Assembly: GCA_026932235.1 (NCBI GenBank)
Contig: JAIXKR010000162.1
Location: 191,970 to 237,902, forward strand
Source: Burkholderiales bacterium
GTDB lineage: Bacteria; Pseudomonadota; Gammaproteobacteria; Burkholderiales; Burkholderiaceae_C
Length of the DNA: 45,933 nucleotides
Reading direction: 5' to 3'
Below are positions 10,442 through 44,115 of this stretch, in pieces (the stretch's first letter is position 1; each line of letters opens with the position of its first letter). A program made the position numbers and the translations under genes. The notes under the pieces were generated by a model, which was not told where the DNA came from, did no database searches, and saw nothing but the letters and a program-made list of their open reading frames with translations.

Positions 10442-10458
10442 CAAACAACCGTTAGGTC
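10442..10458. promoter_or_regulatory. putative TetR operator, site A
   Basis: The sequence CAAACAACCGTTAGGTC lies in the 65-base gap between the divergent thiolase-like gene (start 10409, minus) and the SDR (start 10475, plus). It matches the shared pattern CAAACGWACGNTWGKTW found at four other promoters here. A single regulator site could serve both directions. Confidence 0.55.
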
Positions 10459-10474
10459 GCACGATAGGACGAAC

Positions 10475-11263
10475 ATGCAAACACTTCAAGATCGGATTGC
10501 CCTCATCACCGGTGCCACGGCCTATATCGGCCGCGCTGCAGCGCAGGAACTGGCGCGCCGCGGCGCCCATGTCATCGTCAACGGCCGCAACGCCCACAGC
10601 GGTCAGGCCGTGGTCGAAGAGATCCAGAACGCCGGAGGCCGCGCCGAATTTGAAGCCGCCGATCTGACGGACCCCGAGGCGGTGCGGGCGATGGTCGGGC
10701 GTATCGTGCAACGCCACGGCCGGCTCGACGTGCTGGTGGCCAGCGGCGCCGGCGCCAGCAGCGACTCCCTGGCCTTCAAGTTGTTCATGGAGATGGAAGA
10801 AGCCGACTTCGAGACCTATATCCGCTCGCACTGGCTGACGCGTGCGCACGCCATCCAGGCTGCGGCGGCGGCGATGCGCGCACAGCGCCGCGGCAAGATC
10901 GTGACCATCGGCACCGATGCCGGGCGCGTTGCCACGGTGGGCGAGTCCTTCATCGGTGGCGCCACGGGCGGCATGATGCAGATGTGCCGGGTGCTGGCGC
11001 GCGAACTCGGGCGCGACGGCATCCGCATCAACGCCGTGGCGATGAGCTACATCTGGGACGCCGAACCTCGCTGGGGCGGCGGCTCGCCCGCGCTGGCCGG
11101 CGCGCACGGCCAAGGGATGATCGACAACCTGAGAAAGCGCATGCTGTTTCCGGTGCACTGCGCCGACATCGCGCAGGCTGTGGCGTTTTTCGCCGGCCCG
11201 GAGTCCGATGCCATCACCGGCCAGACGCTGAGCGTCAACGGCGGGCTGAGCACACCGGGCTGA
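10475..11263 (+). CDS. atypical short-chain dehydrogenase/reductase lacking the Y-x3-K pair
   Basis: A 262-residue Rossmann protein starting with the nucleotide-binding ITGATAYIGRAAAQ and ending like FabG-type SDRs (SDAITGQTLSVNGGL). The catalytic part is unusual. By eye alignment the Tyr-x3-Lys positions read Ile160 and Thr164 (ESFIGGATGG), the usual NNAG reads ASGAG (about 89-93), and the catalytic Ser is replaced by Thr in TIGTDAG. The protein can probably bind a dinucleotide, but ordinary SDR chemistry is unlikely. It stands alone on the plus strand, divergent from the thiolase/DUF35/ACAD unit and convergent with the acyl-CoA ligase. It may be a non-catalytic partner, or an enzyme with different chemistry. 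Confidence 0.82.
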   Translation: MQTLQDRIALITGATAYIGRAAAQELARRGAHVIVNGRNAHSGQAVVEEIQNAGGRAEFEAADLTDPEAVRAMVGRIVQRHGRLDVLVASGAGASSDSLAFKLFMEMEEADFETYIRSHWLTRAHAIQAAAAAMRAQRRGKIVTIGTDAGRVATVGESFIGGATGGMMQMCRVLARELGRDGIRINAVAMSYIWDAEPRWGGGSPALAGAHGQGMIDNLRKRMLFPVHCADIAQAVAFFAGPESDAITGQTLSVNGGLSTPG

Positions 11264-11266
11264 CAT

Positions 11267-11302
11267 GGCCGTCAGGCCGCGGCATGCGCGGCCTTGACGG
11301 CC
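11267..11302. terminator. strong hairpin between convergent genes (probable bidirectional terminator)
   Basis: GGCCGTCAGGCCGCG pairs with CGCGGCCTTGACGGCC around a GCATG loop, with one bulged T: about 15 base pairs, nearly all GC. It begins 4 bases after the SDR stop and covers the last codons of the convergent acyl-CoA ligase (end 11272). There is no T-run, so intrinsic termination is plausible rather than certain. Confidence 0.6.
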
Positions 11303-12789
11303 GCCCGGTCAATGCCGCCCGCGGCCGTCTTCGGCAGCGCGGCGACGAAGACGACGTGCTTGGGCTTCTTGTAGCGTGCGATGCGCTGGCCGACGAACTC
11401 GATCAGCGCGTCGGCCGCCAGCGTCTGGCCGAGCTGGAGCACGCACACCGCCTTGATCGCCTCGCCCCACTGCGCATCAGGCACCCCGAACACGACCGCC
11501 TCGCTCAGTGCCGGGTGCTCGCGCAGCGCACGCTCGACCTCGGCCGGGTAGACGTTTTCGCCGCCTGGCTTGATCAGTTCCTTGGCCGGCGAGCGGCCGA
11601 CGTACCAGAGGTAGCCGTCGGCGTCGAAACGGCCCATGTCGCCGGTGTGGTGCCAGCCGCCGCGGAAGGTGAAGGCGTTGTCGGCGTCGCAGTTCCAGTA
11701 GCCGTTGAAGACCATCGGCCCGCGCACCACGATCTCGCCCGCCATGCCTTGGGCGACAGGCCGGTCTTCGTCGTCGACGACGGCCACCGTGTGCTGCTCG
11801 ACCGGAAGGCCCGCGCTGCCGGGCCGGTCGGCATAGCGGGAGGTCGATACCGAGCCGGAGGTCTCGGTCTGGCCATACGCGACCCAGAAGCTGGCATGCG
11901 GGCAATCGGCTGCGAAGCGCGCCAGCGTGTCCGGCGCATCAATGCCCGTCATGATGCGCAGGCCCCGGAGCTTGGATCCTGCGGCCGCAGCGGCGTCGAG
12001 CACGGCGCCCAGCATCGGTGGGAACGAACCCATGACGCTGCCGCGCTGTTCGTCGATCAGCCCCACGACGGCCTTGGGATCGAATCGCGGCAGCAGGACC
12101 GTGGCGCCGGCGGCGACCATCAGGGCCAGCGTCATTCCGATGCCGGCGAGGTGAAACAGGGGCAGCACACCGACCTGTACGTCGGCGACAGTCAGGTTCC
12201 ACGCGTGGGCCGACTTGGTCGCCGCTGCCAGCAAGCCGCGGTGCGACAGCACCGCGCCGCGTGGCCGTCCGCCGACGGCGGCGGTGTGCACGATCAACAG
12301 CCCGGCATCGTCACCGATCGCCGCGGGCGTCGGGGCGGCGCCCTCCAGATACAGGCTTGCCAGCGCCGACCCGGCCGCACCGGCATCCGCGCCGGGGCCG
12401 GTGGTGTACTTGCGCACCCCAGCGATGTCGGCACCTGCCACCAGCGGCTGCAGGTCCGGCGCGACGATCAGCAGCTTGGGCGTGGTATCCGACAGCACAT
12501 GGGCCACTTCCTCGGCAGACAGGCGCCAATTGATCGGCACCACGAGGGCGCCCAGACGGGCTGCGGCGCCGATGACGTCGACATAGGCCTGACCGTTGTG
12601 CGCCAGGATGGCAACACGATCGCCCACCGTGATCCCTTCACCCGCCAATCCGGCGGCCAGGCTCGCAACGCGCGCTGCGTACTGCGCGTGGGTGATCGAC
12701 TGCCCGTCGGCGACGAAGGCCGTGCCGCTGCCATGCAGCAGGGCATTGCGTTCGATCTGGTCGTGGAGTGTGAAGGATCTGAGGGTCAC
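11272..12789 (-). CDS. AMP-dependent acyl-CoA synthetase/ligase with altered catalytic motifs
   Basis: A 505-residue ANL-superfamily protein, normally making acyl-AMP and then acyl-CoA. The fold motifs are clear: a YGQTETSG core near the middle, HTGDMGRFDADGYLWYVGR, KELIKPGGENVYPAEVE, and a C-terminal domain. Two key motifs differ. The phosphate loop usually written TSGTTG-x-PKG reads HTAAVGGRPRGA, and the invariant C-terminal lysine of PKT-x-x-GK is Gly492 (LPKTAAGGIDR). I recall related proteins with the TAAV-type loop, so this may be a subfamily trait. Adenylation activity is in question. The GTG start at 12789 overlaps the upstream hydrolase stop as GTGA. Confidence 0.85.
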   Translation of the reverse strand: MTLRSFTLHDQIERNALLHGSGTAFVADGQSITHAQYAARVASLAAGLAGEGITVGDRVAILAHNGQAYVDVIGAAARLGALVVPINWRLSAEEVAHVLSDTTPKLLIVAPDLQPLVAGADIAGVRKYTTGPGADAGAAGSALASLYLEGAAPTPAAIGDDAGLLIVHTAAVGGRPRGAVLSHRGLLAAATKSAHAWNLTVADVQVGVLPLFHLAGIGMTLALMVAAGATVLLPRFDPKAVVGLIDEQRGSVMGSFPPMLGAVLDAAAAAGSKLRGLRIMTGIDAPDTLARFAADCPHASFWVAYGQTETSGSVSTSRYADRPGSAGLPVEQHTVAVVDDEDRPVAQGMAGEIVVRGPMVFNGYWNCDADNAFTFRGGWHHTGDMGRFDADGYLWYVGRSPAKELIKPGGENVYPAEVERALREHPALSEAVVFGVPDAQWGEAIKAVCVLQLGQTLAADALIEFVGQRIARYKKPKHVVFVAALPKTAAGGIDRAAVKAAHAAA

Positions 12790-13706
12790 GGCGCGGGTTC
12801 TCCGTTGGCGGCTGACAAAGTGGTGGATGGCTCGGACGGCGCTGGCACTGATGGCGTCGAAGGCGGCATGACCTCTCGCAGGAACTCGATCAGGGTGGCG
12901 GTGAAAGCATCGTTGGCGTCGCCTGCCACCATGTGCCCGGCGCCGGCCAGCGCGACGAATCGGGCCAGCGGAAACGTCTGCTGGAACTGCTCTGCGCCCG
13001 CTGGGCTGATCACGTCGCTGCGCGCGCCGCGCACCAACATCAGCGGGCCTGCATAGCCCGCCAGGGCGCGCTCGAAGAACGCCGGATCGTTGCGGTGGTT
13101 GTGGTTCTCGTCGTTCATCAGGCGTTGGTCCCAGTGCCAGGTCCAACGCCCCGCCCGATTCAGGCGCAGGTTCTTCCGCAATCCGCGCGGGTGGGCCATG
13201 ACCGGGCGGCCCCGGTAGCTGGCGATGTGGCGAGCCGCATCCTGCAGCGTCGCAAAGCCATCCGGATGCGCGCGCATGAACTCGACGATGCGGTCGACAC
13301 CCTTGGCCTCGACGCGCGGAGCAATGTCCACCAGGGCCAGGGCAGCGATGGGCGGTGCGTCGCTCCGCGCGGCCATCGCCATGCCGATCATGCCGCCGAG
13401 CGAGGCACCCACCAAGGCGAGCGGCGATCCCAGAGCGTGGCAGAAACGGGCCATGTCGCGCGACATCGTCTCGATGCGGTAGTCCCCGTGCACCGACCAG
13501 GCCGACTCGCCATGCCCTGGAAGGTCCAGCGCGACGGAGCGCCATCCGGCCTGCGCCATGGCGAGCGCCGTGCCGCCCCAGGCATGCCGGGTCTGGCCAC
13601 CGCCATGCAGCAGCAGCACGGTGGGCGCAGCTTCGGGCCCGGCAACATCGGCAACCCACGAGCCGCCGTCGAACCCGCAGAACTCGCGACGCTCAGCCAC
13701 ATCCAT
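12786..13706 (-). CDS. alpha/beta hydrolase
   Basis: A 306-residue alpha/beta hydrolase with HGGGQTRHAW (oxyanion region), LPGHGES and the nucleophile elbow GASLGG (Ser102). An acidic residue is in RGARSDVISP and the catalytic His in GAGHMVAGD. The last 25 residues are Pro/Ser/Ala-rich and probably disordered. No signal peptide. The family includes esterases, thioesterases and C-C hydrolases; it could hydrolyse an ester or a CoA thioester in the pathway. The stop overlaps the GTG of the ligase, so the two are coupled. It lies 114 bases downstream of the ligand-binding protein gene. Confidence 0.82.
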   Translation of the reverse strand: MDVAERREFCGFDGGSWVADVAGPEAAPTVLLLHGGGQTRHAWGGTALAMAQAGWRSVALDLPGHGESAWSVHGDYRIETMSRDMARFCHALGSPLALVGASLGGMIGMAMAARSDAPPIAALALVDIAPRVEAKGVDRIVEFMRAHPDGFATLQDAARHIASYRGRPVMAHPRGLRKNLRLNRAGRWTWHWDQRLMNDENHNHRNDPAFFERALAGYAGPLMLVRGARSDVISPAGAEQFQQTFPLARFVALAGAGHMVAGDANDAFTATLIEFLREVMPPSTPSVPAPSEPSTTLSAANGEPAP

Positions 13707-13820
13707 GGAGCCGACGCATCAACGGCGCCCCTCGGTTGTACGGCCGACCTCTTGCCCGCGATTCTCGTGATTCGACGATGCACCGCGGCGGTGACACTCG
13801 ATGGCTGCTGGGACCGTTCA

Positions 13821-15044
13821 TCAGTAGACAAACAGCGACTTGCCAGGGCGGATCATGGTCAGCTCGACGTAGCGCCCCCCGTGATGCTGGCCGGCCGCAA
13901 AGCTCAATTGGAAACCATTCAGGTCCATGCTGCGGCTGTTTTGGACTGCAACGATGAACCGTTCGCGCGTCGGTTCGGGGCCTGCAAGTAGCAGCGCCTT
14001 CGCGAATGCCTTGGCCGCGACGAAGCCTGTCATCGCTGCATAGCCGATGTGATCGTCCTTCCCGGCTGCCTTCATCAGCGTTCTGAACTCTTTCGACAGA
14101 GGAGACTTCTCTAGGAACGGTGCTGGCATCGTCTGCGCTACCACGATCCCGGCGGCCTGCTTTCCGAGTTCGCGCAAGAGCTGATTGGTGTCAGCCACCG
14201 AAAGCATCAGCACTTGCGCGGCGGTGTCCAGCTTTCTGAACTCGCGCGTGAACTCAATCGTCGCCTTGCCGGCCATCATGACGAGCACGGCCTGCGGTTT
14301 GGCTCGCGCTATCGTCTGCGCCGCGGTGATGGCATCGCGCGCATCCGTCTCGATCGAAGCCGCGACCACTGGCGTCATCTGACGCTTCTTCAGCGCGGCC
14401 TCTGCGCCCGCCAGTCCATCCTTGCCGAACGCATTATTCTGGTACGCCACGGCTATCGACTTGTGGCCGATGGTCGTCAGATGCTGAACCATCTTCTCGG
14501 CTTCAACGCCATATGACGCCATGACCGTGAACAGGTATCGATTGTGTTCGCGGCGCAAACTGTCGGCACCGGTGAACGCCGCAAACAGCGGCACCCGGCG
14601 TTCGGCGATCAAGGGTAGCACCGCCGCGACGGGCGCGGTGCCCAGACTGCCGACGAGCATGAACACGCCGTCTTCGTCCAGCATCTTCACGGTGTTCGCC
14701 AATGCCCGTGGCGCCGCATAGCCATCGTCCATTTGAATCAGCTTGATGCTGCGGCCGTGAACACCTCCCCGCCGGTTGACGTCCTCCAGGCCGACCTTGA
14801 ATCCTTCGCTGTAGTCCGTGCCAATGGCGCCCAGGGGCCCAGTGAGAGAAACGCTCTGTCCGATGAGCACGCTCTGCGCCGTCACGCCCGGCTCGGCGAT
14901 TGCTGACTGCACGTAAAAAAGCGCGATACCCGCGGCGATCACCGCCGCAGCATCCCGCAGAACACCAACGACCCTCGCTGAACAGCGCCATGCAGCTTTC
15001 CGCCAACCCAATGGATGGACGCGATCACCTGATCCTCGCTGCAT
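13821..15044 (-). CDS. branched-chain amino acid-type ABC transporter substrate-binding protein
   Basis: A 407-residue LivJ-like periplasmic binding protein (Peripla_BP_6 type). The N-terminus has a long basic stretch followed by a hydrophobic segment near 35-50 (AAAVIAAGIALFYV) ending SAIAEPG, read as an export signal. The mature part begins with GQSVSLTGPLGAIGTDYSEG and continues with the family's VGSLGTAPVAAVLPL and YQNNAFGKDGL segments. The ATG at 15044 has AAGGAG 6 bases upstream. No permease or ATPase genes are present in the window, so it must work with components elsewhere. In this context it probably binds an aromatic or alicyclic acid rather than an amino acid; that is inference. 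Confidence 0.87.
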   Translation of the reverse strand: MQRGSGDRVHPLGWRKAAWRCSARVVGVLRDAAAVIAAGIALFYVQSAIAEPGVTAQSVLIGQSVSLTGPLGAIGTDYSEGFKVGLEDVNRRGGVHGRSIKLIQMDDGYAAPRALANTVKMLDEDGVFMLVGSLGTAPVAAVLPLIAERRVPLFAAFTGADSLRREHNRYLFTVMASYGVEAEKMVQHLTTIGHKSIAVAYQNNAFGKDGLAGAEAALKKRQMTPVVAASIETDARDAITAAQTIARAKPQAVLVMMAGKATIEFTREFRKLDTAAQVLMLSVADTNQLLRELGKQAAGIVVAQTMPAPFLEKSPLSKEFRTLMKAAGKDDHIGYAAMTGFVAAKAFAKALLLAGPEPTRERFIVAVQNSRSMDLNGFQLSFAAGQHHGGRYVELTMIRPGKSLFVY

Positions 15045-15892: not shown

Positions 15893-15917
15893 TATATCAT
15901 CGAACGTACGTTAGTTA
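15893..15917 (+). promoter_or_regulatory. putative TetR operator, site B, with adjoining -10-like box
   Basis: CGAACGTACGTTAGTTA at 15901-15917 matches the shared 17-bp pattern and lies 23 bases before the FadH-like start. Directly upstream is a -10-like TATATC/TATCAT (15893-15900); no good -35 box is seen. A bound repressor would cover the start point of the long plus-strand run and could also affect the divergent transglutaminase unit. Confidence 0.6.
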
Positions 15918-15939
15918 GCTGTAGGATGCCGACTCTGCC

Positions 15940-18003
15940 ATGACCGCCCCACCCGCATTCACCACCCTCCTCTCGCCGCTGCGGCTGGGCGCCCATACCG
16001 TGCGCAACCGCACCCTGATGGGTTCGATGCACACCGGCCTCGACGGTCTGGAGCGCGGTGTCGAGCGGCTCGCCGCCTTCTACGCCGAACGCGCACGCGG
16101 CGGCGCCGCGTTGATCGTGACCGGCGGCTTCGCAATGAACCTGGAGGCGCTGCTGGACGACCACGGCCCCCGGCTCATGACACCAGAACAAGCCCATGCG
16201 CTGCGGCCCATCCCGCACGCGGTGCATGCCGAAGGCGGCAAGATCCTGCTGCAGGTGCTGCATACCGGACGCTACGGCAAGACGGCGCAACTCGTCGGCG
16301 CGTCCAGCATTCCGTCGCCGATCAACCGCCGCGTGCCGCGCACCCTGAGCACCGCCGAGGTCTGGCAAACGATCGACGACTTCGTCAACTGTGCCGAACT
16401 GGCGATGCAAGCCGGCTTCGACGGCGTCGAGGTGATGGCCTCGGAAGGCTACTTGATCAACCAGTTCACCACCACGCGCTGCAACAACCGAACCGACGAA
16501 TTTGGCGGCAGCATGGCCAACCGCCACCGCCTGCCGGTGGAAATCGTGCGCCGCACTCGCCGGCGGCTGGGGCCCGAGGCCCTGATCATGTACCGCCTGT
16601 CGGCGCTCGACCTGGTCGAGGGCGGCGCACCGGCGCACGAGGTCATCGCGCTGGCTCAGGCCGTCGAGGCCGCCGGCGCCGACGTCATCAACACCGGGTT
16701 CGGCTGGCACGAGGCCAAAGTCCCGACCATCGCCTACCTGGTGCCGCGCGCCGCCTTTCGTTTCGCCGCGGCACGCATCAAGCGTGCCATCGGCATCCCG
16801 CTGATCGTCTCCAACCGCATCAACACCCCGGACGTGGCCGAGGAGATCCTGGCCAGCGGCGACGCGGACATGGTGTCGATGGCGCGGCCGTTCCTGGCCG
16901 ACGCCGACTTCGTGCGCAAGGCGGCGGCCGGTCGCCCGGACACCATCAATACCTGCATCGCCTGCAACCAGGCTTGCCTGGACTTCATCTTCAACGGCCG
17001 GCCCACGTCCTGCCTGGTCAACCCACGCGCTGGTCGCGAGTTGGAGTTCCTTCAGATGCCGGCGCCCAAGGCCAAGCATCGCGTCGCGGTCGTCGGCGCC
17101 GGGGCGGCCGGGCTGGCCTGCGCGGTGACCGCAGCGGAGCGCGGCCATGAGGTGACGCTGTACGAGGCCGCCCCGTCCATTGGTGGCCAGCTCAACCTGG
17201 CTCGCGCGGTGCCTGGCAAGGAGGAGTTCCACGAGCTGGTTCGCTACTTCGAAGCCCGCACGGAGCAAGAGGGAGTGCAACTGCGCCTCGGCCAGCGGCC
17301 GGGCGCGGACGAACTGGCTGCGGCGAAGTTCGACCACATCGTCGTGGCCACCGGCGTGCGTCCGCGTTCCCCACGAATCGAAGGCCTGGACCATCCCAAG
17401 GTGATGGGCTATGCCGACCTGCTCTCGGGGCGCAGGCAGGCGGGCCGTCGCGTGGCCATCATCGGCGCGGGCGGCATCGGCTTCGACGTGGCCGAGTACC
17501 TGCTTCACGAGCTGGCGCCCCATGGTGCAGAGAACAGTGCCGACCACGGCGCCGCCGAGGGCGTCGGCGCCTTCTTCTCCGAATGGGGCGTCGACACCGC
17601 GCCCGACGCACCCGGCGGCCTGAAGCCGCCGCTGTCACCCCGGCCGCTTCGCAGCGTCACGCTGCTGCAGCGCAAGCCGGAGAAGCCCGGCCGCACGCTG
17701 GGCCTGTCGACCGGCTGGGCGCTGCGCGCCCGGCTCGAACAGCGCGGGCTGCAGACCCTGTCGGGCTGCACTTATGAACGCATCGACGACGCCGGGTTGC
17801 ACCTGCGCGTCGGCGCGGAGGCCCGCGTGCTGGACGTCGACACCATCGTCATCTGCGCCGGGCAGGAGTCCGAGACCACGCTGGCCGACGCCTTGCGCAG
17901 CCAGGGGCTGGCACCCCAGGTCATCGGCGGCGCCGAGCTTGCCGCCGAACTCGATGCACTGCGTGCCATCGACCAGGGCACGCGCCTGGCCATGACCTTT
18001 TAG
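15940..18003 (+). CDS. 2,4-dienoyl-CoA reductase (FadH-like FMN/FAD/4Fe-4S enzyme)
   Basis: A 687-residue enzyme with the FadH layout: an N-terminal FMN TIM barrel (1 to about 335), a 4Fe-4S motif (Cys339, 342, 346 and 358, the E. coli FadH spacing) and an FAD/NAD(P) part starting at VAVVGAGAAGLAC. The FadH catalytic residues align: Tyr171 in SEGYLINQF and His257 in GWHEAKVPTI. It should reduce a 2,4-dienoyl-CoA, removing double bonds that block beta-oxidation of unsaturated or ring-derived acids. An acidic, Pro-rich insert (about 525-570) makes it slightly longer than E. coli FadH. First gene of the 17.5-kb run; related ring-reducing flavoenzymes are the main alternative. Confidence 0.9.
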   Translation: MTAPPAFTTLLSPLRLGAHTVRNRTLMGSMHTGLDGLERGVERLAAFYAERARGGAALIVTGGFAMNLEALLDDHGPRLMTPEQAHALRPIPHAVHAEGGKILLQVLHTGRYGKTAQLVGASSIPSPINRRVPRTLSTAEVWQTIDDFVNCAELAMQAGFDGVEVMASEGYLINQFTTTRCNNRTDEFGGSMANRHRLPVEIVRRTRRRLGPEALIMYRLSALDLVEGGAPAHEVIALAQAVEAAGADVINTGFGWHEAKVPTIAYLVPRAAFRFAAARIKRAIGIPLIVSNRINTPDVAEEILASGDADMVSMARPFLADADFVRKAAAGRPDTINTCIACNQACLDFIFNGRPTSCLVNPRAGRELEFLQMPAPKAKHRVAVVGAGAAGLACAVTAAERGHEVTLYEAAPSIGGQLNLARAVPGKEEFHELVRYFEARTEQEGVQLRLGQRPGADELAAAKFDHIVVATGVRPRSPRIEGLDHPKVMGYADLLSGRRQAGRRVAIIGAGGIGFDVAEYLLHELAPHGAENSADHGAAEGVGAFFSEWGVDTAPDAPGGLKPPLSPRPLRSVTLLQRKPEKPGRTLGLSTGWALRARLEQRGLQTLSGCTYERIDDAGLHLRVGAEARVLDVDTIVICAGQESETTLADALRSQGLAPQVIGGAELAAELDALRAIDQGTRLAMTF

Positions 18004-35347: not shown

Positions 35348-35397
35348 TTGACAGCGACCCTGGTGTGCCGCATCATAAACCAAACGAACGATTGTTT
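35348..35397 (+). promoter_or_regulatory. promoter of the TetR-mutase operon with overlapping operator, site C
   Basis: A consensus -35 box TTGACA (35348-35353) is followed after 17 bases by CATCAT (35371-35376, four of six to TATAAT). Directly after it lies CAAACGAACGATTGTTT (35381-35397), one of the best copies of the shared 17-bp pattern, placed over the expected start point. This is the expected arrangement for autorepression by the TetR protein encoded about 85 bases downstream. Confidence 0.6.
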
Positions 35398-35481: not shown

Positions 35482-36072
35482 GTGTCCTCCCGCCCGCTGC
35501 GCACTCCCCGCTCCGACAGCCGCCTGCATGGCCTGCTGGACGTGGCCGCGAGCCTGTTCGCGCAGCGCGGCTATGCCGCGACCTCGATGCGCGACATCGC
35601 GCTGGGCGTGAAGATGCTGCCGGGCTCGGTCTACTACCACTTCGCGTCGAAGGAAGAGCTGCTGGTTGCCGTCTACGAGGCCGGTGTCGGCGAGCTCGAG
35701 GGCGCCGTGCAGGCAGCCCTGAAGCCCGGCGCCGAACCCTGGGAGCGGCTCGAAGCCGCCTGCCTGGCGCACCTGCAGACCGTGCTCAAGAGCAGCGACT
35801 ACGCGCAGGTGTTGATCCGCGTGCTGCCCGAGGACGTGCCGCCGGTGGCCGAACGCCTGCGCACGCTGCGCGCCGGTTACGAGCGGGTGTTCCGCGAGCT
35901 GGTGGCCGCCCTGCCCCTGCCCGCAGGCACCGACCGGCACGCGCTGCGATTGATGTTGCTCGGCGCGCTCAACTGGGCGCGCTTCTGGTTCGATCCGCAA
36001 GGCCGCGAGACCCCGCGCGGCCTGGCACGCAAATTCGTGGGGCTCCTGAGAGAAGCACAACATGCAGCATGA
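35482..36072 (+). CDS. TetR-family transcriptional regulator
   Basis: A 196-residue TetR protein. The N-terminal helix-turn-helix spans about residues 15-60: LLDVAASLFAQRGYAATSM, RDIALGV and PGSVYYHFASKEELL, all standard. The C-terminal helical part (70-190) binds an unknown ligand, in such clusters usually an acyl-CoA. The GTG start at 35482 is inferred from the family's N-terminal length; the frame is open further upstream but that would cover the promoter and operator. It is the first gene of the mutase operon, overlapping the small mutase subunit by 11 bases. It most likely represses the five units that carry the 17-bp operator pattern. Confidence 0.88.
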   Translation: MSSRPLRTPRSDSRLHGLLDVAASLFAQRGYAATSMRDIALGVKMLPGSVYYHFASKEELLVAVYEAGVGELEGAVQAALKPGAEPWERLEAACLAHLQTVLKSSDYAQVLIRVLPEDVPPVAERLRTLRAGYERVFRELVAALPLPAGTDRHALRLMLLGALNWARFWFDPQGRETPRGLARKFVGLLREAQHAA

Positions 36073-36487
36073 ACACCCGCCCAAGGTCATCGTCACCAAG
36101 ATCGGCTTCGACGGCCATGACCGCGGCAGCCGCGTCATCGCCGCCTGCCTGCGCGATGCCGGCATGGAGGTCATATACACCCCGCCGTGGCAGGAGATCC
36201 CCACCGTCGTCAAGCTGGCGATGGAAGAGGACGCCGACGTCATCGGCATCTCGTCACTGGCCACCGACCACCTGATCGTGCCCCGGCTGATGGACGCGCT
36301 GCGCGCCGCCGGGCTGGCCGACATCCAGGTCATCGTCGGTGGCATCGTGCCCGCCAAGGACGAGAAGGTGCTGCTGGCGGCTGGCGTCGCCCAGGTCTTC
36401 CACCCCGGCGCCGCGCTCGACGACATCGTCACCGCCGTGCGCGCGCTGGCCGCCGCGCGCCACGCCCGCCAGGGAGCCTCCGCATGA
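36062..36487 (+). CDS. acyl-CoA mutase small subunit, cobalamin-binding
   Basis: A 141-residue B12-binding protein. The motif D-x-H-x2-G is complete (Asp17, His19, Gly22 in [11 protein letters not shown]), so adenosylcobalamin should bind base-off with His19 as cobalt ligand. The SSL (GISSLATDH) and GG (VIVGGIVP) segments complete the site. The size fits separate small subunits such as IcmB or HcmB rather than the fused methylmalonyl-CoA mutase. It overlaps the TetR gene and shares ATGA with the large subunit, so the stoichiometry is translationally coupled. Confidence 0.94.
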
Positions 36488-38166
36488 ACAAGCCCGTCCC
36501 GCAAATCGCTGCCGCCGATCTGTCGCTGGCCCAGGCCCGCTGGGAGCAGGAATTCGCCGCCGGAGCCGGGCAAGCCGAGCCGCTGCGCAACCGCTCCGGC
36601 GTCGAGATCAAGCCGCTGTACACGCCGCGCGACTGGTCGGGCGCGGCCTATGCCGACAGCCTGGGCTTCCCCGGCGAGTTCCCCTACACCCGCGGCATCT
36701 ACCCCACGATGTACCGGGGGCGCAGCTGGTCGCAGCGCCAGCTCATCGGCCTGGGGGTGCCCGAGGACTACAACAGCCGCGTCAAGGAGATGCTGGCGCT
36801 GGGCGCGTCGGCGCTGTCGCTGATCCCGTGCAACTCGGTCTTCCGCGGCTACGACGCCGACGAGGTGCCGGCCGAACTGCTGGGCACCTGCGGCACGGTG
36901 ATCAACCACGTCGGCGACATGGACCGCGCGCTCGACGGCGTGCCCATCGGCGACCTGTCCACGGCCATGAACGACCCCACGCCGTTCACGCTGCTGGCCT
37001 TCGAACTGGCGGTGGCCAAGCGGCGCGGCGTGCCCTGGACGCGCATCACCGGCACCTCGAACCAGAGCGACTGCATCTCGCACTTCGTCGCCAACCACAT
37101 GTTCTTCCGCATCGCGCTGCAGGGTGCGCGGCGCATCGTGGTCGACCACATCGCCTTCGCCAACGAACAGGTGCCGGGCTGGAACCCGCTGTCCATCGTC
37201 GGCCAGCACATGCAGCAGGCGGGGGCCACGCCGGCAGAGGCGATGGCCTTCACGCTGTGCTCGGCCATCCAGTACGCCGAAGACTGCATCGCCGCGGGCA
37301 TGGACCCCGACCGCTTCCTGCCGCGCTTCACCTTCTTCTTCGACATCTCGGTCAGCCTGTTCGAAGAGGTGGCCAAGTTCCGCGCCGGCCGCCGCGTCTG
37401 GGCCAAACTGTGCCGCGAACGCTTCGGCGCCAAGGACCCGCGCTCGTGGCGCTTCAAGTTCCACGGCCAGACCTCGGGCGTGGACCTGACGCGCCAGCAG
37501 CCGCTGAACAACATCGCCCGCGTCACCACGCAGGCCATGGCCGGCATCTTCGGCGGCCTGCAGTCGCTGCACACCGATTCCTACGATGAGGTCTTCTCCA
37601 CCCCCACGACGGAGGCCGCGCGCATCGCCGTGGCGACGCAGAACATCCTGCGCGAGGAAGCCCACCTCACCGACGTCATCGACCCGCTCGGCGGCTCGTA
37701 TTACGTCGAGTCGCTGACCGACGCGATGCAGCAGAAGATCGAGGCCATCATTGACCTGATCGACGCTGCGGGCGGCATGTACAAGGCGGTCGAAAAGGGC
37801 CTGGTGCAGAAGATGATCGGAGACTCGGCGCTGGCCTTCCAGAAACGCGTCGACGCCGGCGCGGAGACCGTGGTCGGAGTCAACAAGTACACCGTCGAGG
37901 AAGACGCGGCCGACTACCCCGCGCTCGACTACCCGGACCGCGCCCGCATGGACGCCTACCTGATCCGGCTCAAGGCCTTCAAGGCCGAACGCTCCGCCGC
38001 CGCGGTGTACAAGGCGCTCGCTGCGCTGGCCGCGGCCGCGCAGTCGAAGCGCGACAACGTGTTCGCGCAGGTCGTCGCCGCAGCCGAAGCCAGCGCCACG
38101 CATGGCGAGATCTGCGCCACGCTGCGCCGTGAAATGGGCTTCGGTCAGCCCTTGACGATCGTGTGA
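36484..38166 (+). CDS. B12-dependent acyl-CoA mutase large subunit, unusual active site
   Basis: A 560-residue TIM-barrel subunit, the length of IcmA and HcmA. The family's substrate-binding region reads [20 protein letters not shown]; Tyr77 stands where methylmalonyl-CoA mutase has Tyr89, isobutyryl-CoA mutase Phe and 2-hydroxyisobutyryl-CoA mutase Ile. The second specificity position (Arg207 in methylmalonyl-CoA mutase, Gln in isobutyryl-type) reads Asn204 in HFVANHMFF. The His244 equivalent is kept (His242), but the adjoining Tyr243 equivalent is Gln241 (VGQHMQQAG). The end of the barrel [11 protein letters not shown] is typical. It should rearrange a CoA-linked carbon skeleton by a radical route, but on a substrate different from the known ones. 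Positions come from alignment by eye. Confidence 0.93.
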
Positions 38167-39389
38167 TGAACGCCGAAACGAACCCGCTCGAAGCCATCCT
38201 GGCAGGCGACCGGCGCGCGGTGGCGCGCGCCATCACGGCGCTGGAAAACGACAGCGACAGCGCGCACGCCGTTCGCGCCGGGGTGGCCGCGCACGTGGGC
38301 CGCGCGCATGTTGTCGGCGTCACCGGGCCGCCGGGGGGCGGCAAGTCCACGCTGGTGTCGGGCCTGATCAGGCAGTTGCGCGTGCGCGGCCACACGGTGG
38401 CAGTGGTCGCGGTCGATCCGTCCAGCCCCTTCACCGGCGGCGCCGTGCTCGGCGACCGCATCCGCATGGGCGAGCACCAGGCCGACGAAGGGGTGTTCAT
38501 CCGCTCGCTCGCCTCGCGCGGCCACCTGGGCGGGCTGGCACGCTCGGCCACCGACGTCGTCGATGTCTTCGATGCCGCCGGCTACCACACGGTGATCGTC
38601 GAAACCGTCGGCGCCGGGCAGTCCGAGGTCGAGGTCACGCGCATCGCCGACACACGCCTGGTGGTCTGCCCGCCGGGGCTGGGCGACGACATCCAGGCCA
38701 TCAAGGCTGGCGTGCTGGAGATCGCCGACGCCTTCGTCGTCAGCAAGGCCGACCTGCCCGACGCGCAGCGGACCGAGAACGAATTGCTGTCGATGCTGAC
38801 GCTGCGCCGCGGCCCGGCTGCCAAGCCGCCGGTTCTGCGCACCATCGCGACCACCGGCGAAGGCTTGCGCGAACTGGTCGACTGGCTGGAACAGCGCACG
38901 CAGCGCGGCAGCCGCCACGCCGCCACCGAGGACCGCGCCGCGCGCGACCTGGTCGCACGTTCGATTGCCGCCGACGGCTACGGCAGGCATCTGGGGTTCG
39001 AACTCGTGGCTGCGGCCCGCGGCACGGCCACCGTGCGCATGCGGGTCGGGCCGCAGCATCTGAACTTCAACGGCCGCTGCCACGGCGGCGCCATCTTCTC
39101 GCTGGGCGACATGGCGCTCGGCCTGGCCTGCAATTCGCACGGCACGATCGCCGCGTTGATCGACGGCAACATCAGCATCTCGACCGGCGTCGAGCCGGGC
39201 GACTGGCTGGTGGCGCATGCCACCGAGGTGTCGCGCTCGCGCAAGGTCGGCGTGTACCGTGTCGATGTGAGCCGCGCCAGCGACCAGGCGCACATCGCCT
39301 GCCTGTCGGGAACGGTCTACGTCACCGGCAAGCCGGTGCCGGTCGCAGCGCCGGGCGAGCGGCCGGGCCTCGCGCCGCTGCTGAACTGA
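38166..39389 (+). CDS. MeaB-like GTPase chaperone fused to a PaaI-type hotdog thioesterase
   Basis: A 407-residue two-domain protein. Residues 1 to about 250 are a G3E GTPase of the MeaB/ArgK type: Walker A GPPGGGKS (54-61), AVDPSSPFTGGAVLGDRIRM (82-101), ETVGAGQSE (146-154) and a base-specificity SKAD (193-196). MeaB proteins load and protect the B12 cofactor of acyl-CoA mutases. Instead of the usual C-terminal dimer arm, residues from about 270 to 390 form a hotdog domain with NFNGRCHGGAIFSLGDMALG (HGG at 306-308, Asp315), the PaaI thioesterase signature. The ATG overlaps the mutase stop (TGATG). I infer a chaperone that also removes acyl-CoA esters, perhaps dead-end ones. Confidence 0.9.
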   Translation: MNAETNPLEAILAGDRRAVARAITALENDSDSAHAVRAGVAAHVGRAHVVGVTGPPGGGKSTLVSGLIRQLRVRGHTVAVVAVDPSSPFTGGAVLGDRIRMGEHQADEGVFIRSLASRGHLGGLARSATDVVDVFDAAGYHTVIVETVGAGQSEVEVTRIADTRLVVCPPGLGDDIQAIKAGVLEIADAFVVSKADLPDAQRTENELLSMLTLRRGPAAKPPVLRTIATTGEGLRELVDWLEQRTQRGSRHAATEDRAARDLVARSIAADGYGRHLGFELVAAARGTATVRMRVGPQHLNFNGRCHGGAIFSLGDMALGLACNSHGTIAALIDGNISISTGVEPGDWLVAHATEVSRSRKVGVYRVDVSRASDQAHIACLSGTVYVTGKPVPVAAPGERPGLAPLLN

Positions 39390-39727: not shown

Positions 39728-39775
39728 AGGCGCCCACGTCCGCTGCCAAGCCCACAGTACCGACCGGAGAACTCC

Positions 39776-40960
39776 ATGAACAAGCCCGAAATCTATGTCG
39801 TCAGCGCAACGCGGACCGCCATTGGCAGCTTTGGCGCTGCGCTGAAGGACGTGCCGCTGTCGCAACTGGCCAGCACGGCGGTACGCGAGGCCATCGCCCG
39901 CGCCGGCACCGACGCCGCCAGCATCGGCCACGTGGTGCTGGGCAACGTCATCCCCACCGAACCGCGCGACGCCTACCTGGCGCGCGTGGCCGCCATCGAG
40001 GCCGGCATTCCGAACGAGACGCCGGCATTCAACGTCAACCGGCTGTGCGGCTCGGGCCTGCAAGCCATCATTTCTGCGGCGCAAACGCTGCTGCTTGGCG
40101 ACGCCGAGATCGCCATCGGAGGTGGCGCCGAGTCGATGAGCCGCGGGCCCTACCTGCTGCCTGCCGCGCGCTGGGGGGCACGCATGGGCGATGCGCCCAT
40201 GACCGACTACATGCTCGGCGTGCTGCACGACCCCTTCCATGCCATCCACATGGGCATCACGGCCGAAAACGTTGCTGCCAGCGCAGGCATCACGCGCGAA
40301 ATGCAGGACGCGCTGGCGGTGGCCAGTCAGCAGCGCGCGGCCCGCGCCATCGCCGAAGGCAGGTTCAAGAGCCAGATCGTCGCCGTCACCATGGCCACGC
40401 GCAAGGGCACTGTGGTCTTCGACACTGACGAGCATGTGCGCGGCAATGTGACCCTGGAGCAGTTGGCGGCCATGAAGCCGGCTTTCAAGAAGGACGGTTC
40501 GGTGACGGCCGGCAACGCCTCGGGTCTGAACGACGCCGCATCGGCCGTGGTTCTGGCCACCGGCGCCGCCGTCCAGGCGCGCGGGCTCAAGCCGCTGGCT
40601 CGGCTGGTGGCCTACGCCCACGCCGGCGTGGACCCCAAGCTGATGGGCCTGGGCCCGGTACCGGCCTCGCGCCTGGCCCTCAAACGCGCCGGCCTCGGCG
40701 TCAACGACCTCGACGTGGTCGAGTCCAACGAAGCCTTTGCCGCGCAGGCCTGCGCCGTGACGCGCGCCCTCGAACTCGACCCCGCCAAGGTCAACCCGAA
40801 CGGCTCGGGCATCTCGCTCGGCCATCCGGTGGGCGCCACGGGCGCGATCATCACCACCAAGGCGCTGTACGAGTTGCAGCGCATCCAGGGGCGCTACGCG
40901 CTGGTGACGATGTGCATCGGCGGCGGGCAGGGCATCGCCGCGATCTTCGAGCGCGCCTGA
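39776..40960 (+). CDS. acetyl-CoA acetyltransferase (thiolase)
   Basis: A 394-residue degradative/biosynthetic-type thiolase with the complete active site: nucleophile Cys91 in NRLCGSGLQAI, His350 in SLGHPVGATGA and the second Cys380 in MCIGGGQG. It cleaves 3-ketoacyl-CoA with CoA to release acetyl-CoA or propionyl-CoA. It closes the mutase operon and is the only canonical thiolase in the window, so it is the probable terminal step for beta-oxidation in the cluster. The start has CCGGAG upstream. Confidence 0.94.
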   Translation: MNKPEIYVVSATRTAIGSFGAALKDVPLSQLASTAVREAIARAGTDAASIGHVVLGNVIPTEPRDAYLARVAAIEAGIPNETPAFNVNRLCGSGLQAIISAAQTLLLGDAEIAIGGGAESMSRGPYLLPAARWGARMGDAPMTDYMLGVLHDPFHAIHMGITAENVAASAGITREMQDALAVASQQRAARAIAEGRFKSQIVAVTMATRKGTVVFDTDEHVRGNVTLEQLAAMKPAFKKDGSVTAGNASGLNDAASAVVLATGAAVQARGLKPLARLVAYAHAGVDPKLMGLGPVPASRLALKRAGLGVNDLDVVESNEAFAAQACAVTRALELDPAKVNPNGSGISLGHPVGATGAIITTKALYELQRIQGRYALVTMCIGGGQGIAAIFERA

Positions 40961-40963
40961 CGC

Positions 40964-40994
40964 GGCCCGCCGAGGCGCTGGCGCCTGGGCGGCC
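40964..40994. terminator. hairpin between convergent thiolase and SDR genes
   Basis: AGGCG pairs with CGCCT around CTGG; after one G-G mismatch CGCC pairs with GGCG, then GGC with GCC after a bulge. This stable stem fills the 39 bases between two convergent genes, fitting a bidirectional terminator. No T-run is present. Confidence 0.55.
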
Positions 40995-40999
40995 TTGGC

Positions 41000-41758
41000 C
41001 TACAGGAACTCGGTGCCGCCGTCGACCATCAAGGTCTGCCCGGTCATGAAGTGGCTGTCGGCCGACAGCAGGAAGGCAATGGTGCCGACCAGGTCACCGG
41101 CCTCGAGGTTGCGTTGCAGCGCCTGGCTTCCGGCAATGGCCTTGGTGACCTGCTCGTGCTTGGCGCCGAAGTAGCTCGTCGTTCCCTCGGTCAGCACCAG
41201 CGACGGCGCCACTGAATTGACGCGGATCCAGTCGCGCCCCAGTTCGCGCGCCAGGCAGCGCGTGATGCCGATGACCGCCGCCTTGGACACGCCGTAGTCG
41301 ATGGCATACGCCATGCCGTGCACGGCGGCCAGCGACGAGATGTTGACGATGCTGCCGCCGCCGGCCTTGCGGATCTGCGGCACGGCTGCCTTGCACATCT
41401 GCCAGATGCCCTTCACGTTGACGTTCATCACCGCGTCCCACTGCTTCTCCTCGATCTGGTCGAAGCGGGCACCCTTGATGTCGGCGTAAAGCGCAGCGTT
41501 GTTGACCAGGCCGTCGAGCCGGCCGAACTCGGCCACGGCCACCTCGACCGAGGCCAGGCAGGACGCCATGTCGGTCACGTCCAGACGCAGCGCCACGGCG
41601 CGACCGCCTGCGCCGCAGATCGCGGCAACGGTTTCGTCGCACGGCCGCAGGTCGCCACACACCACCGCCGCGCCCTCGGCGGCGAGCCGCTCGGAAAAGC
41701 CTCTGCCCAAGCCGCGCGCGGCGCCGGTGACGATGACGACTCGTTCCTTCATTGTCAT
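41000..41758 (-). CDS. short-chain dehydrogenase/reductase
   Basis: A 252-residue classical SDR with VTGAARGLGRGF (NAD(P) binding), NNAALYADIKG, a Ser in NISSLAAVHG and the catalytic Tyr-x3-Lys in DYGVSKAAV. The C-terminus (HFMTGQTLMVDGGTEF) is typical of FabG-like enzymes. It overlaps the stop of the Rieske oxygenase as ATGA, so it likely oxidises the alcohol or dihydrodiol made by that oxygenase. The exact substrate is unknown. The ATG at 41758 was chosen because of the overlap; a second ATG lies two codons on. Confidence 0.9.
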   Translation of the reverse strand: MTMKERVVIVTGAARGLGRGFSERLAAEGAAVVCGDLRPCDETVAAICGAGGRAVALRLDVTDMASCLASVEVAVAEFGRLDGLVNNAALYADIKGARFDQIEEKQWDAVMNVNVKGIWQMCKAAVPQIRKAGGGSIVNISSLAAVHGMAYAIDYGVSKAAVIGITRCLARELGRDWIRVNSVAPSLVLTEGTTSYFGAKHEQVTKAIAGSQALQRNLEAGDLVGTIAFLLSADSHFMTGQTLMVDGGTEFL

Positions 41759-42930
41759 GCTGTCTCCCCTGGTGGGCTGGTGTCACCGACGGCCTGCGCC
41801 ACGGTACGCTGAAAGTAGGCCAGCGCGGGTTCGTTGCGCCCGTAGGTGGCATGGGTCTGGGCCCCGGATGCAAAGCCGCGTTGCATGCCTTCGCTGGCCG
41901 GGAAGTCCTCGTCGCAGACGGTGCGGATGGTCAGATCCATGTTGCGCTGCCAGTGGCGGCGCGCGCTGTCGGAGTCGACCGGATGGGGCACGTGGAAGTC
42001 GAGGTACATGGTGCACTCGTCGACCTTGCCCGCCGTCGGGTAGACACGCCAGGTCTCGACATGGTCGACCTGCACGACGAAGACCGTGTTCGGGAACAGC
42101 ACGTAGACGAGGGTGTGGTGGGCGATCAGGTCCCACTCGCTTTCGGGCAGGCCGCGCTGGCGCTCCAGGCTGCGCCGCGGCAGTACCTCGCGCAAGTGCA
42201 GGCCGAATGGTTTGAACAGACACAGGTTGGGGTGGAAGAGCGGCGCCACCGAGTCGCGATGCAGCACGCTGAAATGGTAGCTCTCGAGGAAGGTGTCGAT
42301 GACCAGCTTCCAGTTCATCTGGCGCTGGATCTGGCGCGTCTCGTAGTGGTGGTAGCCGGCCAGGCCGAAGGACGCGAACTCGGCGTCGAGTTCCCCCAGG
42401 AAGCCCTGGGCATCGATCTCCAGGCCCTCCGGGCCGACGCTGGGCTGCACCCACAGCATGCCGTGGCGTTCGGCCAGCGGCAGCGGCGCCAGGCCGTAGG
42501 CGGCCTTGTCCACACCGGGGAAGTTGCGCTGGTCGGGAATGCCACGCAACTCGCCCTCCAGGCCGTAGGTCCAGCCGTGGTAGGGGCAGACGAAATTATT
42601 CTGCCGACCACAGCCTTCGGCCAGGCGTGCACCACGGTGCCGGCAGACATTGTGGAAGGCCCGCGCCCGGCCGTCCTTGCCGCGCACCACCAGGATCGGG
42701 ATGCCGCTGAGGTCATCGGTGAAGTGGTCGCCCGGCTGCGGGATCTGGTTGGACAGGCCCATCAACAGCGGGTACTTGCGGAACAGCAGCGCCGACTCGC
42801 GCGCCAGGCGCTGCGGGCAGGTATAGGCCGTCACCGGGTTGAAGCTCACCGCGTCGGCCAGATCGGTGGTGCCGGCGTCGAGGTGGGCGAATGCCTGGCG
42901 CATCAGCGCCACCTGTTCGTCGCGGTTCAT
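41755..42930 (-). CDS. Rieske non-haem iron oxygenase, alpha subunit
   Basis: A 391-residue oxygenase. The N-terminal Rieske domain has Cys96-x-His98 in VCRHRGARL and Cys115-x2-His118 in CPYHGW for the 2Fe-2S cluster. The C-terminal catalytic domain has the mononuclear iron ligands in ESYHFSVLH (His219 and His224). The bridging acid appears to be Glu216 rather than the Asp of naphthalene dioxygenase, as in CntA-type oxygenases. No beta subunit, ferredoxin or reductase is present, so electrons come from elsewhere. It should hydroxylate a ring or alkyl position and pass the product to the coupled SDR. Operator-like site D lies 43 bases upstream. Confidence 0.9.
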   Translation of the reverse strand: MNRDEQVALMRQAFAHLDAGTTDLADAVSFNPVTAYTCPQRLARESALLFRKYPLLMGLSNQIPQPGDHFTDDLSGIPILVVRGKDGRARAFHNVCRHRGARLAEGCGRQNNFVCPYHGWTYGLEGELRGIPDQRNFPGVDKAAYGLAPLPLAERHGMLWVQPSVGPEGLEIDAQGFLGELDAEFASFGLAGYHHYETRQIQRQMNWKLVIDTFLESYHFSVLHRDSVAPLFHPNLCLFKPFGLHLREVLPRRSLERQRGLPESEWDLIAHHTLVYVLFPNTVFVVQVDHVETWRVYPTAGKVDECTMYLDFHVPHPVDSDSARRHWQRNMDLTIRTVCDEDFPASEGMQRGFASGAQTHATYGRNEPALAYFQRTVAQAVGDTSPPGETA

Positions 42931-42972
42931 GGCTTCTCCCGATGCATTTGCGGGAACGCGATGTTAGTTTGC

Positions 42973-42989
42973 CAAACGTACGCTAGGTA
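42973..42989. promoter_or_regulatory. putative TetR operator, site D
   Basis: CAAACGTACGCTAGGTA lies in the 167-base gap between the divergent Rieske (minus) and Bug receptor (plus) genes. On the minus strand a -35-like CTGACA (43014-43009) precedes it; the -10 is weak (TCTACC). The site would cover the start point of the oxygenase transcript. The pattern is shared with sites A, B, C and E. Confidence 0.6.
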
Positions 42990-43097
42990 GACCATCCACC
43001 AAGCGACCTGTCAGTCGACGGTGGGCCTAACGCAATCTCGCGTCGGCCGGCACTACGGCCGCGCGGCCTGCCCAGGCATAGCGGCAACGGAGGAATC

Positions 43098-44072
43098 ATG
43101 TTCAGACTCAAATTCTCGGCGGTCGCGCTGCTCACACTGGCCTGCTTGGCCGATGTTCACGCGCAGACCGCACAGACCTACCCGGCCAAGCCGATTCGTT
43201 TCATCGTGCCCTATGCCCCTGGCGGCAGCACGAGCCAGGTGGCACGGCTGGTGGCGGACAAGATGACCGAGAGCTGGGGCCAGCAGGTGCTGGTCGACAA
43301 CCGGGGCGGGGCCAACACCGTGATCGGCACCGACGCGCTGGCGAAATCAGCGCCCGACGGCTACACGATCGCGCTGCACACATCCACCCTGGCCACCTTG
43401 CAGCACCTGCTGCCCACGCTGCCGTTCGACCCGATCAAGGATTTCATGCCGGTGACGACTCTCGTCACCACCCAACTGGTGCTGGTCCTGCACCCGTCGG
43501 TGCCGGCGAACAGTGTCAAGGAGTTCATCGCCCTGGCCAAGGCCAAGCCGAACGAGCTGAACTTCGCTGCCGTCGGCACCGGCAGCTCGACCCACCTGGC
43601 GGGCGAGATGTTCAAGACTGTGGCCGGCGTGAAGATGCAGCATGTGCCTTACAAGGGCACGGCACCGGCGTTGACCGATCTGATCGGCGGCCAGATTCAG
43701 CTCAATTTCGATACGCCCATCACCTCGTTGCCGCACATCCGCGCCGGCAAGCTCAAGGCGATCGCGGTGACCGGCAAGGCGCGCCTGGCCAGCATGCCGG
43801 ATGTGCCCACGTTCGCCGAAGCCGGTCTGCCCGACTACGACTTCCAGTTGTGGTTCGGGGTACTCGCGCCGGCCGGAACACCGAAGGACATTGTCGACAA
43901 GCTGGCGACCGAGATCACCAGAATCCTGGCGCTGCCCGATGTGAAGGAGAACTTGACGGCGCAGGCGATCGACCCTCAGAGCATGGGACCCGCCCAGTTC
44001 GGCGCGATGATCAAGAACGACATCGAACGCTACGGCAAGGTCATCAAGGCCGCCGGGATCAAGATCGAGTAG
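43098..44072 (+). CDS. Bug-family tripartite tricarboxylate transporter receptor (TctC-like)
   Basis: A 324-residue periplasmic receptor with a Sec signal (about 1-22, ending DVHAQT) and the Bug motifs YPAKPIRFIVPYAPGGSTSQ, DNRGGANTVIGTDALAKSAPDGYT and HVPYKGTAPALTDLIGGQI. It is the third such receptor in the window and again has no TctAB partners nearby. A strong GGAGGA ribosome site stands before the ATG. It reads towards the BadH/BadI-like genes, which have their own operator-like site, so it may be separately controlled. Ligand probably a carboxylate of the pathway. Confidence 0.9.
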   Translation: MFRLKFSAVALLTLACLADVHAQTAQTYPAKPIRFIVPYAPGGSTSQVARLVADKMTESWGQQVLVDNRGGANTVIGTDALAKSAPDGYTIALHTSTLATLQHLLPTLPFDPIKDFMPVTTLVTTQLVLVLHPSVPANSVKEFIALAKAKPNELNFAAVGTGSSTHLAGEMFKTVAGVKMQHVPYKGTAPALTDLIGGQIQLNFDTPITSLPHIRAGKLKAIAVTGKARLASMPDVPTFAEAGLPDYDFQLWFGVLAPAGTPKDIVDKLATEITRILALPDVKENLTAQAIDPQSMGPAQFGAMIKNDIERYGKVIKAAGIKIE

Positions 44073-44086
44073 GCGGCGCCCCAAGT

Positions 44087-44115
44087 CAAACTAACACCTG
44101 TTCGGTTGTTATACT
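44087..44115 (+). promoter_or_regulatory. putative TetR operator, site E, with -10 box
   Basis: CAAACTAACACCTGTTC (44087-44103) matches the shared 17-bp pattern; the overlapping reverse strand (44108-44092) reads CAACCGAACAGGTGTTA, a second match. It is followed by TATACT (44110-44115), a good -10 box, about 45 bases before the BadH-like gene. No clear -35 box is seen. Binding would block RNA polymerase access. Confidence 0.55.

Follow-up and report, generated by a model that had tools for sequence, protein, structure and literature searches.

Operator sites shared by acyl-CoA catabolic promoters of a Burkholderiales bacterium suggest control by two paralogous TetR repressors

Five short near-palindromic sites lie at promoters of acyl-CoA catabolic genes in a 45,933-nucleotide stretch of DNA (the window) from a Burkholderiales bacterium (assembly GCA_026932235.1, contig JAIXKR010000162.1, positions 191,970-237,902 of the forward strand). 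A preliminary description of the window proposed that all five are operators of the one TetR-family protein encoded within it. The operators form a real and conserved group, of an already known kind, but the largest gene run, which starts with a FadH-like gene, is probably not under that one regulator. Sequence comparison suggests that a second repressor, encoded in another part of the genome, controls at least this run.

Labels beginning with G denote genomes, those beginning with L denote loci, and those beginning with C denote contigs of the source genome; the window ends at the end of C158. The source assembly comprises 3.86 Mb in 169 contigs and is 81% complete and 5.8% contaminated. The main comparison genomes are Caenimonas sedimenti (G202) and G199, which belongs to a different genus of the same family and carries both of the TetR genes discussed below.

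Genes and sites of the window

The five 17-mers of the preliminary description are present at 10442, 15901, 35381, 42973 and 44087. Their common unit is a 16-bp near-palindrome, roughly NAAC-N3-YG-N3-GTTN, that starts one base after the start of each 17-mer, and the sites are named here by the first base of this unit. None lies in a likely gene, as the description had held: codon-position GC content and homology indicate that the long open reading frames (ORFs) overlapping them are start-codon extensions or wrong-frame ORFs. Gene assignments from Pfam and NCBIfam bear out the link to a TetR-family regulator and the position of the sites before several acyl-CoA catabolic units.

The 35382 site (AAACGAACGATTGTTT, 35382..35397, + strand) precedes the TetR gene of the window and a mutase operon, all on the + strand. 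The regulator, called TetR-A here (35482..36072), has TetR_N and TetR_C_24 domains over the Pfam cut-off. It is followed by the B12-binding small subunit of an acyl-CoA mutase (36062..36487; TIGR00640 over cut-off), a methylmalonyl-CoA-mutase-like large subunit (36490..38166, scanned as 36187-38166; TIGR00641 over cut-off) and a single ORF that joins a MeaB-type GTPase to a 4HBT thioesterase domain (38163..39389). The nearest solved chain to the large subunit is 2-hydroxyisobutyryl-CoA mutase (4r3u). In place of the RQIAG of 2-hydroxyisobutyryl-CoA mutase and the RQYAG of methylmalonyl-CoA mutase, the large subunit reads RQLIG, and an altered stretch follows. We take this position to have a role in substrate choice, so the substrate may be of neither the methylmalonyl-CoA nor the 2-hydroxyisobutyryl-CoA type.

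The 15902 site (GAACGTACGTTAGTTA, 15902..15917, + strand) precedes a 2,4-dienoyl-CoA-reductase-like flavoprotein gene (15940..18003, + strand), named FadH for its domain make-up. This gene opens a run that includes several acyl-CoA dehydrogenase (ACAD) genes, with genes on the same strand up to 33486.

The 10443 site (AAACAACCGTTAGGTC, 10443..10458, + strand; an overlapping register, AACCAAACAACCGTTA, starts at 10439) lies between two divergent units. The first gene to the right encodes a short-chain dehydrogenase/reductase (SDR; 10475..11263, + strand). To the left is a thiolase/ChsH2/ACAD unit that begins with a thiolase of the lipid-transfer/acetyl-CoA acetyltransferase type (9240..10409, - strand; NF004811 over cut-off) and contains a ChsH2/DUF35-type OB and zinc-ribbon protein (8811..9224, - strand). 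Aminotransferase and AAA_26/CbiA-type (biotin-synthesis-like) genes lie at 1463-5627, on the same strand as the thiolase and to the left of histidine kinase and response regulator genes.

The 42974 site (AAACGTACGCTAGGTA, 42974..42989, + strand) lies between a Rieske oxygenase alpha subunit gene to the left (41755..42930, - strand) and a gene for a TctC-type substrate-binding protein to the right (43098..44072, + strand). The 44088 site (AAACTAACACCTGTTC, 44088..44103, - strand; GAACAGGTGTTAGTTT on the other strand) precedes BadH-BadI. It had been listed as present on the reverse strand too, which is true in the sense that the site is an imperfect palindrome. The BadH-like SDR (44160..44954, + strand) has BadH TIGR03206 as its best NCBIfam model, below cut-off (211 versus 431.2 bits), and BadI, 2-ketocyclohexanecarboxyl-CoA hydrolase (44966..45757, + strand), is just over the cut-off of TIGR03210 (468.9 bits, cut-off 467.6).

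Three of the sites had been said to adjoin -10 or -35 boxes. A good promoter pair was found before the 35382 site only (TTGACA-N17-CATCAT, ending at 35376). Weak pairs, with 8 of 12 letters, are present near 10443, 15902 and 44088, and no box pair was found near 42974. The 35382 and 15902 sites are downstream of their pairs and the 44088 site overlaps its own, which fits repression by blocking RNA polymerase.

Sites compared with chance expectation

A loose consensus, CAAACNNACGNTNGKT with up to three mismatches, has 29 matches in the window where 31.3 are expected, and is thus not enriched. For this reason counting was done with position matrices trained on other genomes: 13 TetR-A-type words and six words of a second type, TetR-B (see below), with the source genome and its close kin (L001-L004) left out, although the training set contains one word identical to that at 35382 and one that is a single base off the 15902 word. 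At a threshold of 12.7, set by the lowest-scoring site (42974), the matrices return only the five loci in the window, as six positions because 10439 and 10443 overlap. Sixty dinucleotide-shuffled windows give a mean of 0.28 positions and a maximum of 1, so that the strict motif is about 18-fold above shuffles. Across the source genome, AAACNWWCGWWNGTTW with up to two mismatches has 47 strand-hits in 22 separate places, versus 10 strand-hits for a reversed-pattern control.

The five sites could in principle be chance AAC...GTT words in promoter gaps that share no common regulator, and the loose consensus, which is no commoner than in shuffles, would agree with that. The strict counts oppose it, as does the presence of sites at matching promoters in other genomes, Caenimonas sedimenti having all five at the corresponding promoters. 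Chance is an extremely improbable explanation for the group, and for 15902 and 35382 it is hardly tenable.

Two TetR paralogs with different operators

The source genome has 15 TetR_N matches, 14 of them over cut-off. Sites of this operator kind lie directly before four of its TetR genes: TetR-A, one gene each on C162 and C28, and TetR-B on C117 (C117:17695-18318), whose product is 38% identical to TetR-A over the matched part. TetR-A, TetR-B, the C162 TetR and a C158 TetR (L130) have both TetR_N and TetR_C_24 over cut-off. The neighbors of TetR-B form a biotin-carboxylase/ACAD cluster with ACAD, carboxylase and HMG-CoA-lyase-like genes. The C162 TetR lies beside acyl-CoA dehydrogenase and carboxyltransferase genes (liu-type) and is accompanied by two or three sites that resemble these operators in general form (C162:33233-33333).

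The words before TetR-A and TetR-B differ. TetR-A has AAACGAACGATTGTTT, the 35382 site, and TetR-B has GAACATACGTTAGTTA at C117:17604, to which the 15902 site is equal at 15 of 16 bases. G199 encodes orthologs of both (75% identity for TetR-A, 79% for TetR-B), preceded by AAACGAACGATTGTTT and GAACATACGTTAGTTA, respectively, each identical to the word in the source genome, so that all four genes have a palindromic operator directly before them. The half-site TAG(G/T)T, which the TetR-B operator also has, is present in the 10443, 15902, 42974 and 44088 sites and absent from 35382; it also occurs in one C162-TetR site and in two TetR-A training words.

All 17 loci L001-L017 have a TetR-A-type word (at least 9 of 12 consensus letters) before the gene for the TetR-A relative, and the same count over all loci is 36 of 80, both figures being without a shuffled control. 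The recognition-helix region reads MLPGS in 18 of the 25 listed TetR-A relatives, the others having MLAGS, ILPGS, ILSGS, ILGGS or MASGS. The corresponding region is (I/V)KAGSIYYHF in all eight TetR-B orthologs with at least 70% identity, with MKAGS or MQAGS in three that are less closely related. L008 is a metagenome-assembled genome (MAG) that carries the mutase operon and a TetR-A of 67% identity; it is labeled Propionibacterium, perhaps through an error in binning or naming.

The FadH promoter

A site precedes the FadH orthologs (at least 71% identity) of all nine other genomes examined (G199, G200, G201, G202, G203, G205, G206, G207 and G135), and in all nine it is of the TetR-B type. The exact TetR-B word GAACATACGTTAGTTA is found in G199 and G203, and the source genome and Caenimonas carry GAACGTACGTTAGTTA. 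The 15902 site scores 26.3 under the TetR-B matrix and 16.8 under the TetR-A matrix. G199, G202 and G203, all of which carry both regulator genes, have a TetR-B-type site at the FadH promoter and a TetR-A-type site at the TetR-A promoter.

Site types and regulator genes were also compared across genomes, and they do not go together in every case. G135 (99% complete) encodes a TetR-B (71%) and no TetR-A above 39%, and it keeps GAACAGTTGTTAGTTA before its FadH ortholog (71-72%). This promoter is shared with a divergent carboxylase/ACAD cluster, the same cluster that adjoins TetR-B on C117 in the source genome. In G135 GAACAGTTGTTAGTTA is also found before an enoyl-CoA hydratase gene, whose ortholog in the source genome (C130:7519) likewise has a site. 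The exact TetR-B pattern GAACRNNYGTTAGTTA occurs in three of 200 family genomes (the source genome, G199 and G135), all among the four with a TetR-B of at least 71%; the fourth, G056, is without it. The exact TetR-A pattern AAACGAWCGWTTGTTW occurs in four of the 200, namely the source genome, G199 and G164, which are three of the nine with a TetR-A of at least 54%, and G125, which has no close TetR-A. G056 encodes a TetR-B (74%) and no TetR-A above 37%, and has four places scoring at least 15 in 18 kb versus 0.04 in shuffles. They include GAACAATCGTTAGGTT before an ACAD gene and GAACGGACGTTTGGTA before a thiolase gene; GAACAATCGTTAGGTT resembles the Caenimonas form of the 10443 site. Conversely, G209-G216, which encode TetR-A but no close TetR-B, were checked over the 400 bases before their FadH homologs (55-60% identity), and none of the eight has such a site there.

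These data bear directly on the earlier proposal that TetR-A alone represses all five units. TetR-A lies inside the cluster and adjoins a site, and in two MAGs, G200 and G207, the FadH site is found together with TetR-A and with no detected TetR-B (none above 38% identity). BadH-BadI follows the mutase operon in G199, which would also suit that proposal. Against it, two paralogous TetRs keep different operators in both the source genome and G199, and the FadH site is of the TetR-B type and persists in G135, which has no close TetR-A. Moreover, the flanks of TetR-A in loci without a close TetR-B (L008, L009 and L011-L017) show the TetR-A operator only, except for one 9.2 match in L016; the other units may, however, lie outside these flanks. 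A comparison of sites in TetR-A flanks between genomes with and without TetR-B was set aside as confounded, since BLAST matches show no BadH-BadI stretch in the same nine loci. Sole control by TetR-A is improbable: the proposal is probably right in assigning the mutase operon to TetR-A and probably wrong in doing so for the FadH run.

Assignment of the sites

We favor the reading, at a probability of roughly 60%, that TetR-A controls the mutase operon and TetR-B the FadH run, the other three promoters belonging to the same operator group. From the conserved sites, and from two types of operator that tend to co-occur with one or the other TetR gene, we infer the following course of regulation. 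The five sites would be operators of a group of related TetR_C_24 repressors. TetR-A is predicted to bind AAACGAACGATTGTTT just downstream of the -10 box and so to repress itself and the acyl-CoA mutase operon. TetR-B would bind the GAACRNNYGTTAGTTA form and repress itself, the adjoining biotin-carboxylase/ACAD cluster and, through the 15902 site, the FadH/ACAD run. At the thiolase/SDR, Rieske/TctC and BadH-BadI promoters TetR-A, TetR-B or both may act. Binding of an acyl-CoA of the pathway would then lift repression and turn on the scattered genes for acyl-CoA breakdown in concert. An acyl-CoA inducer is plausible from what is known of the family. KstR2, FadR and Mce3R, TetR repressors with solved structures, are distant sequence relatives (for KstR2, E = 2.4e-13 with TetR-A and 2.6e-13 with TetR-B), and their ligands are acyl-CoA or lipid-linked.

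A number of observations weigh against this division of labor. The 10443 site leans toward TetR-A (16.9 versus 10.1 for TetR-B, under a broad TetR-A model), and the 42974 site does so slightly (15.2 versus 13.2). The TetR-A matrix is broad enough that C162-TetR sites also reach 22-25 under it, and the TetR-B matrix was built from few, near-identical words; the two matrices were dropped as sole assigners of 10443, 42974 and 44088 on these grounds. The GAACRNNYGTTAGTTA pattern was derived in part from genomes that it then found. No recognizable site lies directly before the TetR-B gene of G135, and only diverged sites lie before that of G056. The FadH homologs of G209-G216 may be paralogs. The two MAGs with the FadH site and no detected TetR-B are a further difficulty, for which missing contigs are a possible reason. 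Finally, C117, the home of TetR-B, could be foreign, given the contamination of the assembly; the presence of both regulator regions on one contig in Caenimonas speaks against this.

The three remaining promoters are where an alternative is most relevant, namely overlapping control, in which TetR-A, TetR-B and perhaps the C162 TetR of the liu-type cluster bind most sites with graded affinity, the hybrid 10443, 42974 and 44088 sites being tuned for several of them. Counterparts of the 10443 site are found at the same promoter in G202 (AAACAATCGTTAGGTC), G199, G203, G206, G207 and G200. The 42974 site has a counterpart, TAACGTACGATAGGTA, at the same place in Caenimonas sedimenti, and only a weak one, GACCGAACGACCGTTA, before TctC in G203. 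That of 44088 is AAACTAACACCTGTTT in L002 and L004; the 44088 site itself scores 20.8 under the TetR-B matrix and 16.8 under the TetR-A matrix, and the form in G201 and G202 scores 17.1 and 22.2, respectively. No site scoring above 11 lies directly before BadH in G199 or G203. The three sites thus score similarly or inconsistently under the two models and change between genomes, as overlapping control would have it. The high scores of C162-TetR sites under the TetR-A model, and the two registers, four bases apart, that the motif permits at several sites, point the same way.

Gene order at BadH-BadI pulls both ways, again in keeping with overlapping control. In G135, BadH, BadI and TetR-B lie in a row on one strand, TetR-B being separated from BadI by 456 bases. 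The G135 site upstream of BadH, TGCCAAACGATAGTTA, is weak and within chance for the stretch (one place of at least 15; shuffles 0.20, maximum 2), which tells against the favored reading. So does G199, where BadH and BadI lie downstream of the TetR-A/mutase operon on the same strand and lack a site of their own. An assignment of BadH-BadI to TetR-B from the G135 order was not upheld, being weakened by both observations. Overlapping control does not readily explain why the FadH and TetR-A promoters keep separate types in the three genomes that carry both genes, nor does it sit well with the difference between the two recognition helices, and we consider it rather unlikely.

On the favored reading, in which TetR-A and TetR-B divide the mutase operon and the FadH run, catabolic operons of unknown substrate become one predicted, testable regulon. 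It gains targets on other contigs that are invisible from the window alone, and the regulator of its largest gene run is corrected. The case also indicates that, where paralogous TetRs of a genome have similar-looking operators, knowing just one of the TetR genes can lead to a wrong assignment. More tentatively, some ten or more promoters at scattered places might form a TetR regulon for a new alicyclic or branched acyl-CoA pathway, whose enzymes would include a BadI ring hydrolase, a FadH-like reductase, a ChsH2-thiolase, a divergent B12 acyl-CoA mutase and a biotin-dependent carboxylase. Control might be divided between two paralogous repressors whose operators are graded and shared in part, one sensing the mutase branch and the other the ring-opening and carboxylation branch.

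Comparison with known systems

In betaproteobacteria, the breakdown of branched-chain amino acids and of fatty acids is predicted to be regulated by the TetR-family proteins LiuQ and FadP (PMC5343134). The present system resembles them in family, in occurrence in betaproteobacteria and in having several acyl-CoA catabolic operons under one operator type. Among the TetR genes of the source genome, one on C162 adjoins liu-type genes and another (C158:172674-173312) adjoins fad-type genes. The system differs in its gene setting, TetR-A being encoded next to a B12 mutase operon and TetR-B next to a carboxylase/ACAD set; the likeness is one of family and gene content, not of motif. TetR-A does not lie beside isovaleryl/methylcrotonyl-CoA genes, as LiuQ would, and the C162 TetR lies beside ACAD and carboxyltransferase genes. 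TetR-B, with its ACAD, carboxylase and HMG-CoA-lyase-like neighbors, may have a LiuQ-like origin.

BadH-BadI genes are elsewhere controlled by BadR, a MarR-family repressor of the bad-ali genes that has the operator CAAN4TTG and is released by a CoA ester of the pathway (PMC9795900). The BadH-BadI promoter of the window differs in carrying a 16-bp TetR-type near-palindrome. No CAAN4TTG was seen by eye in the gap before BadH (44073-44159), and no MarR gene was found among the window proteins scanned, which did not include every ORF; BadR/MarR-type control thus finds no support here.

The enzyme mix is similar to that of the mrc genes of Castellaniella defragrans, which act in monoterpene ring cleavage and for which the available part of the report names regulators of the MarR and LuxR types (PMC4109377). 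Both include BadH/BadI-like ring opening, a 2,4-dienoyl-CoA reductase, an acyl-CoA dehydrogenase and MaoC-type hydratases. The same part names no B12 mutase, ChsH2/thiolase pair or Rieske gene for mrc, and the two are likened by description, not by orthology. A steroid-type pathway, to which the ChsH2 domain might point, was considered as well but not adopted. With this similarity, and with BadI just over its curated cut-off and BadH below its own, the pathway of the window is predicted by analogy.

Further sites in the genome

Six further matches (C46:962, C67:9036, which is inside an ORF, C124:56539, C125:5326, C147:38116 and C158:6676) were set aside as probably due to chance. Other sites lie between two carboxyltransferase genes (C13:11812), before an ETF-QO gene (C78:32425), between a monooxygenase-like gene and a carbonic anhydrase gene (C134:39720), a pair that recurs in the relative L240, and before an enoyl-CoA hydratase gene (C117:52407), an arrangement that recurs in G199 (L241).

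At its end (C134:66509-67456), C134 carries an ABC transporter gene that is preceded by another operator, AATCTAACGGTAGTTA at C134:67385. Caenimonas has the equivalent site and ABC transporter gene directly after BadI, and C134 therefore probably continues the window.

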